NCBI GenBank assembly: GCA_030603445.1
Contig: JAUVXU010000009.1
Coordinates: 5,982-69,981 of the forward strand
Direction: 5' to 3'
Length of the DNA: 64,000 nucleotides
From: Methanomicrobia archaeon
GTDB taxonomy: Archaea; Methanobacteriota_B; Thermococci; Methanofastidiosales; NM3
In this document: positions 41,435 through 50,607 of the stretch, in pieces
How positions within the stretch are numbered: the stretch's first letter is position 1
How the letters are laid out: each line of letters starts with the position of its first letter
Translations under genes and position numbers: made by a program
The notes under the pieces: model-generated
Database searches by the model: none
Told to the model about the DNA's origin: nothing
Seen by the model: only the letters and a program-made list of their open reading frames with translations

Positions 41435-41551
41435 GTGGCCGGCAGCGTCTCGGGGTTCCCACCAAAGGCAGTACAACCCGAATCGCAAAGAGACTTTACT
41501 TCTGGGATCGGAACGAGACCAGGTGTAGCCCTCTTGCTATGACCGCCGTAC
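41435..41551 (-). rRNA. rrf: 5S ribosomal RNA
   Basis: The reverse complement reads as a typical archaeal 5S rRNA: GGCGGTCATAGC near the 5' end, ACACCTGGTCTCGTTCCGAT and CCCAGAAGTAAAGTC in the centre, and GTACTGCCTTTGGTGGGAA with GGGAACCCCGAGACGCTGCC near the 3' end. A TATA box lies 27 bases upstream of the predicted 5' end and TTTTTCTTTT follows the 3' end, so it is its own transcription unit. No 16S, 23S or tRNA gene is adjacent. The ends are accurate to a few bases. Confidence 0.95.
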
Positions 41552-49558: not shown

Positions 49559-49881
49559 AAGAAGCCACCAACACAAGACATAAATTTGTGTTATTTTTAA
49601 AGATTATGGTATTAGATAAAATTTTTAATATATTCGCATTGAATTAGAATTTTAATAAACTAACATTAGGTTGACCGTGTCTTATCATCCTTGATATATT
49701 TTTGTGTCATTTATCATGTTTTATAGTTATTTTTTCTTTAATTTTGGGATAATTTATCAAAAAAAATAAAATATTCATATATATTTAACAATTATAAATT
49801 TATTGATATTTTAATGGTTTACATGTATATGATTATATAAAACTCAATACACAAAAATATCTAATATTTATGTCAAGAAAA

Positions 49882-49891
49882 CTATTTATAC
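49882..49891 (+). promoter_or_regulatory. TATA box of the candidate ncRNA
   Basis: CTATTTATAC, centred about 27 bases before the G at 49914, where a seven-pair helix of the candidate RNA begins. No open frame follows on this strand. Confidence 0.6.
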
Positions 49892-49913
49892 TCTGTTTGT
49901 ATATGTACTTTTA

Positions 49914-50126
49914 GCAACGGCATATGGGAGTGACAGGACAGGCTTGTACCGTTCCTGAAGCGTCGATCATATGTGTTTCATGAGCAGAAATGCAAAAAAA
50001 CTGCCAGTTTCGAAAGAAAGGAAGCGGGGGACTGTTGCACGAGCCAGTACCTGAAAAGAAAAGGTGAATGTACTGAACAAACACCTTCGAATCCAACTCT
50101 GTTGGAGGTGCTGACTCACCTTTTTT
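49914..50126 (+). ncRNA. Candidate structured non-coding RNA (unknown family)
   Basis: A GC-richer island of about 213 bases in a very AT-rich gap, with its own TATA box and a final U-tract. A closing helix pairs 49914-49920 (GCAACGG) with 50032-50038 (CTGTTGC). Inside it are CAGGA/TCCTG (49934-49938 with 49953-49957) and GCAG/CTGC (49984-49987 with 50001-50004). The 3' domain nests AAAAGGTGA/TCACCTTTT (50059-50067 with 50116-50124), CACCT/AGGTG (50082-50086 with 50106-50110) and CCAAC/GTTGG (50093-50097 with 50101-50105), then T6. CAGTAC/GTACTG (50045-50050 with 50070-50075) would compete with or knot the terminal helix. I could not match it to SRP RNA, RNase P RNA or a known riboswitch. Confidence 0.55.
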
Positions 50127-50607
50127 ATTAGGCTAGTGTTAACATATGGTTTTATAATTTTAGATATTTTTATAAATCTAAAATATGTCTTATATTTTCC
50201 TCTTAAACTCGTTGCATTGAACAAAAGTCAATATGGGAATATTAGATTATATAATAAATTCAAAAACAAAATTTACGTCCATATAGAAGTAAAAAAAGGT
50301 AGGGTTATAGGAGGTATATGTTATTATTTTATATGTTTATATTGCCCTACCCTTTCTTGATGCCACTGCTAGCTTTTTTGTAAAATATAATAAGGTATTG
50401 TAACAATTAATATGAAATCGTGCCACTTTTATTCTTAATTAAATTAAGTTTAAGTGTTAACAATGCCCCAAAAAGTATAAGATTATATATGTATTAGCTA
50501 CAGTAGTGTAATTAGACGTAGGATTTGTCATAGTCCTTAAATATTATTGGCAGATAATAATTTATATTCTCCCTATGAACAAATAACATCTCTATAAGGT
50601 GATATGT
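50127..50607. other. AT-rich non-coding stretch with two inverted repeats
   Basis: No convincing gene. ATTTTAGAT/ATCTAAAAT (50157-50165 and 50176-50184) is a perfect nine-pair hairpin in AT-rich DNA. GGTAGGG/CCCTACC (50298-50304 and 50345-50351) encloses a GGAGGT sequence and a 21-codon hydrophobic frame (50318-50383). The last part holds the apgM promoter region and an AGGTGAT ribosome site at 50597-50603. Confidence 0.4.

Follow-up and report, generated by a model that had tools for sequence, protein, structure and literature searches.

A multi-copy, two-domain candidate non-coding RNA found in one family of Methanofastidiosia-like archaea

Archaea have few large structured RNAs beyond the universal set of rRNA, tRNA, SRP RNA, RNase P RNA and guide RNAs. 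The archaeal SRP RNA (RF01857) and RNase P RNA (RF00373) resemble the RNA described here in size class, in having several junctions, in their BRE/TATA promoters and in being stand-alone genes. Both, however, are found elsewhere in the same genome (contig C41, 195.7 bits, and contig C5, 110.6 bits, respectively), and neither model has a match at this locus. Riboswitches share with this RNA a compact multi-helix fold, conserved junctions and a GNRA loop. In contrast to them, it has its own promoter, no consistent downstream gene and no supported alternative pairing. Precedents for such an RNA are the lineage-specific candidate structured RNAs recovered by comparative genomics (Weinberg et al. 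2010, PMC2864571), which likewise covary, are likely to act in trans, belong to one lineage and are open in function. The present RNA differs from these in matching, by sequence or structure, none of the 4227 families of Rfam 15. Nothing pertinent was found among the papers listed for the Methanofastidiosia-like lineage combined with non-coding RNA or riboswitches.

The window analysed is a stretch of 64,000 nucleotides from a Methanomicrobia archaeon. The features of the RNA gene within it are listed in Table 1. The original prediction had described a GC-richer island of about 213 bases in an AT-rich gap, and this is borne out, with the island being about 45% GC (0.40–0.47 across) and most of the surrounding gap 0.11–0.29. 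The TATA box is centred 26.5 nt upstream of G49914, the first base of a closing helix of seven pairs (GCAACGG/CTGTTGC), in agreement with the 27 bases first given, and the predicted T6 is present at the end. All 10 complete copies of the RNA have a TATA-like hexamer or heptamer 20–22 nt upstream of the modelled start; the chance of such a box in a 12-nt segment of this gap is about 6%, the copies not being independent draws. Most complete copies also have an A-rich BRE-like stretch upstream. Similar BRE and TATA layouts precede the SRP RNA and 5S rRNA genes of the genome. The T-run is missing from the branches not named in Table 1.

Table 1. Features of the candidate RNA gene (window coordinates).
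Feature	Coordinates	Strand	Details
Archaeal promoter	49875..49890	+	BRE-like AAGAAAACTA and TATA box TTTATA (49885-49890); TATA spacing kept in 10/10 complete copies; layout as in SRP RNA and 5S rRNA
RNA gene	49914..50126	+	About 213 nt; likely start G49914, T-run at end; 257.8 bits with model R1; 92% identical paralogue
5' domain	49914..50038	+	Closed by P1 (49914-49920/50032-50038); junction with P2-P3, P4 and P5; P1 has two-sided changes in 6/7 pairs
Long arm	49921..49973	+	P2 49921-49926/49968-49973; P2b 49928-49931/49960-49964 (one bulge); P3 49935-49941/49949-49956
P4	49976..49990	+	Short variable hairpin, UUUC/GAAA in the window copy; from the paralogue's fold, by eye in other sequences
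P5 hairpin	50008..50019	+	Invariant GAAA tetraloop; CGAAAG in 10/10 aligned copies; stem covaries UA/CG/GC
3' domain	50041..50117	+	Closed by P6 (50041-50051/50107-50117); three-way junction with P7 and P8
Joining strand	50052-50060	+	TGAAAAGAA; in the 3' domain
P7 hairpin	50061..50087	+	50061-50066/50082-50087; apical stem UGU/ACA 50069-50071/50077-50079; pentaloop ACUGA
P8 hairpin	50092..50106	+	TCCAAC-TCT-GTTGGA; two-sided changes in 5/6 pairs
T6 run	50121..50126	+	Likely archaeal terminator; T4 to T6 in the window copy, the paralogue and the G004 copy

Whether the threshold was the gathering score or a permissive one, searches of the window RNA and its homologues against Rfam gave chance matches only. 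The original prediction had been unable to place the RNA among SRP RNA, RNase P RNA, 5S rRNA, tRNA or known riboswitches and had proposed this covariance-model check, which returned no family at the window RNA or at any homologue. Identity with 5S rRNA was also rejected, the 5S rRNA gene of the genome being located elsewhere. That gene (window 41437–41550, minus strand) is the sole match in the window at an Rfam gathering score.

A DNA search of relatives identified a paralogue on contig C36 of the window's genome, where the flanking sequence is unrelated, and a stretch of 77% identity in a sister genus. Two covariance models were used, R1, built from three sequences, and R2, which covers the 3' part from P5 to P8 only; the seed rows of both were trimmed by hand, with a few loop bases deleted and N inserted in two R2 rows, to bring the helices into register. 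Over 115 genomes R1 found 11 places of 55–260 bits, two of which, in G003, are perhaps one gene assembled twice. They occur in each of the five genomes examined from the window's family, at one to three copies per genome. This family sample is metagenome-assembled as far as the records name it. R2 recovered the same set together with a fragment at a contig edge in G002 (L069:1-101; the model match covers G002:C28:1-57), which is another copy of the G001b/G001c type truncated by the contig end. The search of related archaeal genomes that had been suggested shows the RNA in each of these five.

Beyond the family, the best R1 match is of 19 bits, and no believable match to either model was found in the 110 other genomes of the class or phylum. 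Weak matches in G006, G007 and G014 (19–20 bits) were rejected, those in G007 and G014 being coding-looking sequence in which little of the fold is kept, as was a full-length weak match in the window's own genome (14.6 bits) inside an ORF resembling biotin ligase. In a scan of about 85,000 species, which demands an exact pattern match so that far homologues could escape, true matches were confined to four genomes of the family: Candidatus Methanofastidiosia archaeon MAG 293, Candidatus Methanofastidiosia archaeon Zod_Metabat.1406, archaeon NM3 and Methanomicrobia archaeon SpSt-1146. The genome of the window is placed in this family by a kinship table, and its likeness to Methanofastidiosia is deduced from these record names. 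Pattern matches in Muriicola, Fulvivirga, an Anaerolineae MAG and one IMG/VR contig were unsupported by the model, and the RNA was not found in phages or plasmids. By every search made this is a new RNA family, and lineage-restricted structured RNAs of open function have precedents (PMC2864571).

In a tree of the copies, the two from the window's genome pair, as do the two from G003, and G001b, G001c and G002b form a separate branch. This suggests lineage-specific duplications beside an older split. Identity between branches is only 49–65%, so that it is structure rather than sequence that is conserved. No strictly invariant stretch exceeds about six bases (CGAAAG), and the unpaired stretches that are conserved measure only about 5–7 nt and vary between branches. 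The copies have no conserved reading frame, as the pair in the window's genome differs by a one-base indel and the longest frame free of stops varies among copies.

The single-sequence fold of the window copy (−64.9 kcal/mol, against −54.2 ± 4.4 for shuffles) has a z of −2.46, which is modest alone; the G004 copy, from the sister genus, has a stronger z of −4.35. Comparison among homologues gives much stronger evidence than the single fold. An alignment fitted to the model, which leans the pair counts and the scan of all column pairs toward that model, contains 47 pairs in seven helices with 94.9% of cells paired. Two-sided changes are present in 32 of these 47 pairs, a number equalled by none of 500 shuffles, and slid structures reduce the paired cells to 38–49%. 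In the scan, the known helices and the apical stem of P7 rank top. RNAalifold, run on a plain unfitted MAFFT alignment, recovered P2, P3, P5, P6, P7 and P8 (39 pairs, 20 with two-sided changes) and added P2b and the P7 apical stem. P1 is misaligned in the MAFFT alignment, and its support includes the fitted one. Paired columns have 43 GU against 18 AC, which favours the plus strand, though the fitted alignment itself also favours G-U. Compensatory changes, on which the original prediction had made a functional RNA depend, are present in both alignments. Together with the promoter and the Rfam result they uphold its view that this is a well-folded, independent non-coding RNA, possibly of a new family.

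Individual helices differ in their conservation. P2 is paired in 100% of cells, with two-sided changes in 4 pairs, and P3 in 96.7%, with 6. Pairing in P6 is retained in 98% of cells and 7 of its 11 pairs have two-sided changes. The P7 apical stem covaries from UA to CG and from GC to AU. P2b, as seen by RNAalifold, is consistent but not compensatory. P4 is the weakest helix of the fold and is a longer hairpin in other branches.

The locus is best read as encoding a new structured RNA that is confined to one lineage, probably acts in trans and is most likely the RNA component of a small RNP. Stated in full, this is a stand-alone multi-copy non-coding RNA gene whose transcript would fold into two domains and act in trans as a small-RNP RNA, to which a probability of about 0.68 is assigned. 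Fold, family, promoter and independence from neighbouring genes, taken together, are close to certain on comparative sequence evidence; the choice of an RNP RNA over another trans role is made by analogy and is evenly balanced. We infer the transcription of the RNA, its transcript ends, its action in trans, RNP assembly and its biological role. RNA polymerase would initiate from the BRE/TATA promoter at or beside G49914, and the transcript would terminate near the T-run at 50126. A two-base linker would separate the 5' junction (P1, the P2-P3 arm, P4, and P5 with its GAAA loop) from the 3' three-way junction (P6, P7 and P8). The parts that stay constant while the helices drift, namely the GAAA loop, the joining strand CCUKAAA, the P7 loop and the P2/P2b internal loop, are likely to provide tertiary contacts and a protein surface. 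The RNA would act in trans as the RNA of a small RNP and not as the leader of the next gene. A hitherto undescribed RNP or housekeeping-type RNA of one Methanofastidiosia-like family, with one to three diverged paralogues per member and a mechanism unlike that of any known archaeal RNA, is a bolder proposal, held tentatively and with the odds somewhat against it.

The genes next to the RNA vary among the copies. They encode an apgM-type phosphoglycerate mutase in the window, a DUF1508 protein after the paralogue, and elsewhere an RNase III-like protein, a histidine kinase (G003) and a beta-helix protein; others are convergent to the RNA, as at G001b, G002b and the second G003 copy. There is no common neighbour partner, apart from proteins of about 155 aa near three copies. 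Since the neighbours differ and are partly convergent, the RNA is an independent gene, which argues against a standard riboswitch. A riboswitch or leader acting in cis on the downstream gene could account for those copies that have a close next gene on the same strand (the RNase III-like gene in G001 and G002, the histidine kinase gene in G003 and the DUF1508 gene after the paralogue). Such a role is very improbable, however, in light of the changing and sometimes convergent downstream genes, and of the window's next gene beginning about 470 nt past the T-run. A consistent place upstream of one kind of gene on the same strand was not found among the copies, nor were two mutually exclusive conserved pairings. 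The 6-nt complementarity CAGTAC/GTACTG, from which alternative folds or a pseudoknot had been suggested, does exist in the window copy. It has no two-sided changes, three of the six pairs are disrupted in some branches, and the two segments sit in P6 and in the P7 apical hairpin, where each covaries with its own partner and is kept paired in all branches. The scan of all column pairs in the fitted alignment showed no pseudoknot, and the suggestion is not sustained.

The main rival to an RNP RNA is antisense regulation, in which the RNA would pair with mRNAs in trans, using the exposed ACUGA loop of P7 or the CCUKAAA joining strand. Several copies per genome, each with its own promoter, and conserved unpaired loops would suit such a regulator, but a large fold is kept everywhere and the conserved unpaired stretches are both short and variable between branches, making this reading unlikely, if the least so of the alternatives. 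A guide RNA carrying a long antisense element is likewise unlikely because of the brevity of the longest invariant stretch. A small mobile or selfish element, carrying its own promoter and spreading as a unit of 300–350 bp, is suggested by the 354-column block shared by the window copy and its paralogue between unrelated flanks, and by two copies about 700 nt apart in G001. Against this, copies are few in each genome, the neighbour genes examined include no linked transposase or integrase, no tRNA is near the copies, and the structure is kept across large divergence, so that there is little chance of the RNA being such an element. The two junctions, the invariant tetraloop and the conserved joining strands would also be in keeping with a self-processing or otherwise catalytic RNA, yet no Rfam ribozyme family matches and there is no strict core of many invariant bases; a ribozyme is accordingly a very doubtful identity. 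A multi-copy, promoter-bearing, two-domain RNA in all five genomes examined from an uncultured archaeal lineage offers a well-defined object for mapping transcripts and pulling down proteins. It also adds a new family of the Rfam type, for which a covariance model is already available.

Further features are present around the copies. The proteins of about 155 aa are related, have no Pfam match and are encoded no more than 3 kb from RNA copies in three genomes (L048:6403-6873, L054:8144-8599 and L053:3155-3643). The RNase III-like gene, without a dsRNA-binding domain match, follows one RNA copy in G001 and one in G002 at a distance of 84 nt (L048:7375-7845, L049:2559-3029). A link between it and the RNA was rejected, as it adjoins one copy in each of these genomes yet no RNase III match is present in G000 or G004; this protein family is missing from most relatives searched. 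An inverted repeat, AAAGGTAGGG...CCCTACCCTTT, is located downstream of the RNA gene at window 50294–50360 and has no second full copy in the window's genome. The sequence TTAACATATG, which is not seen in the other branches, is at window 50139–50148, 12 nt past the T-run, and recurs with similar spacing behind the paralogue and the G004 copy.
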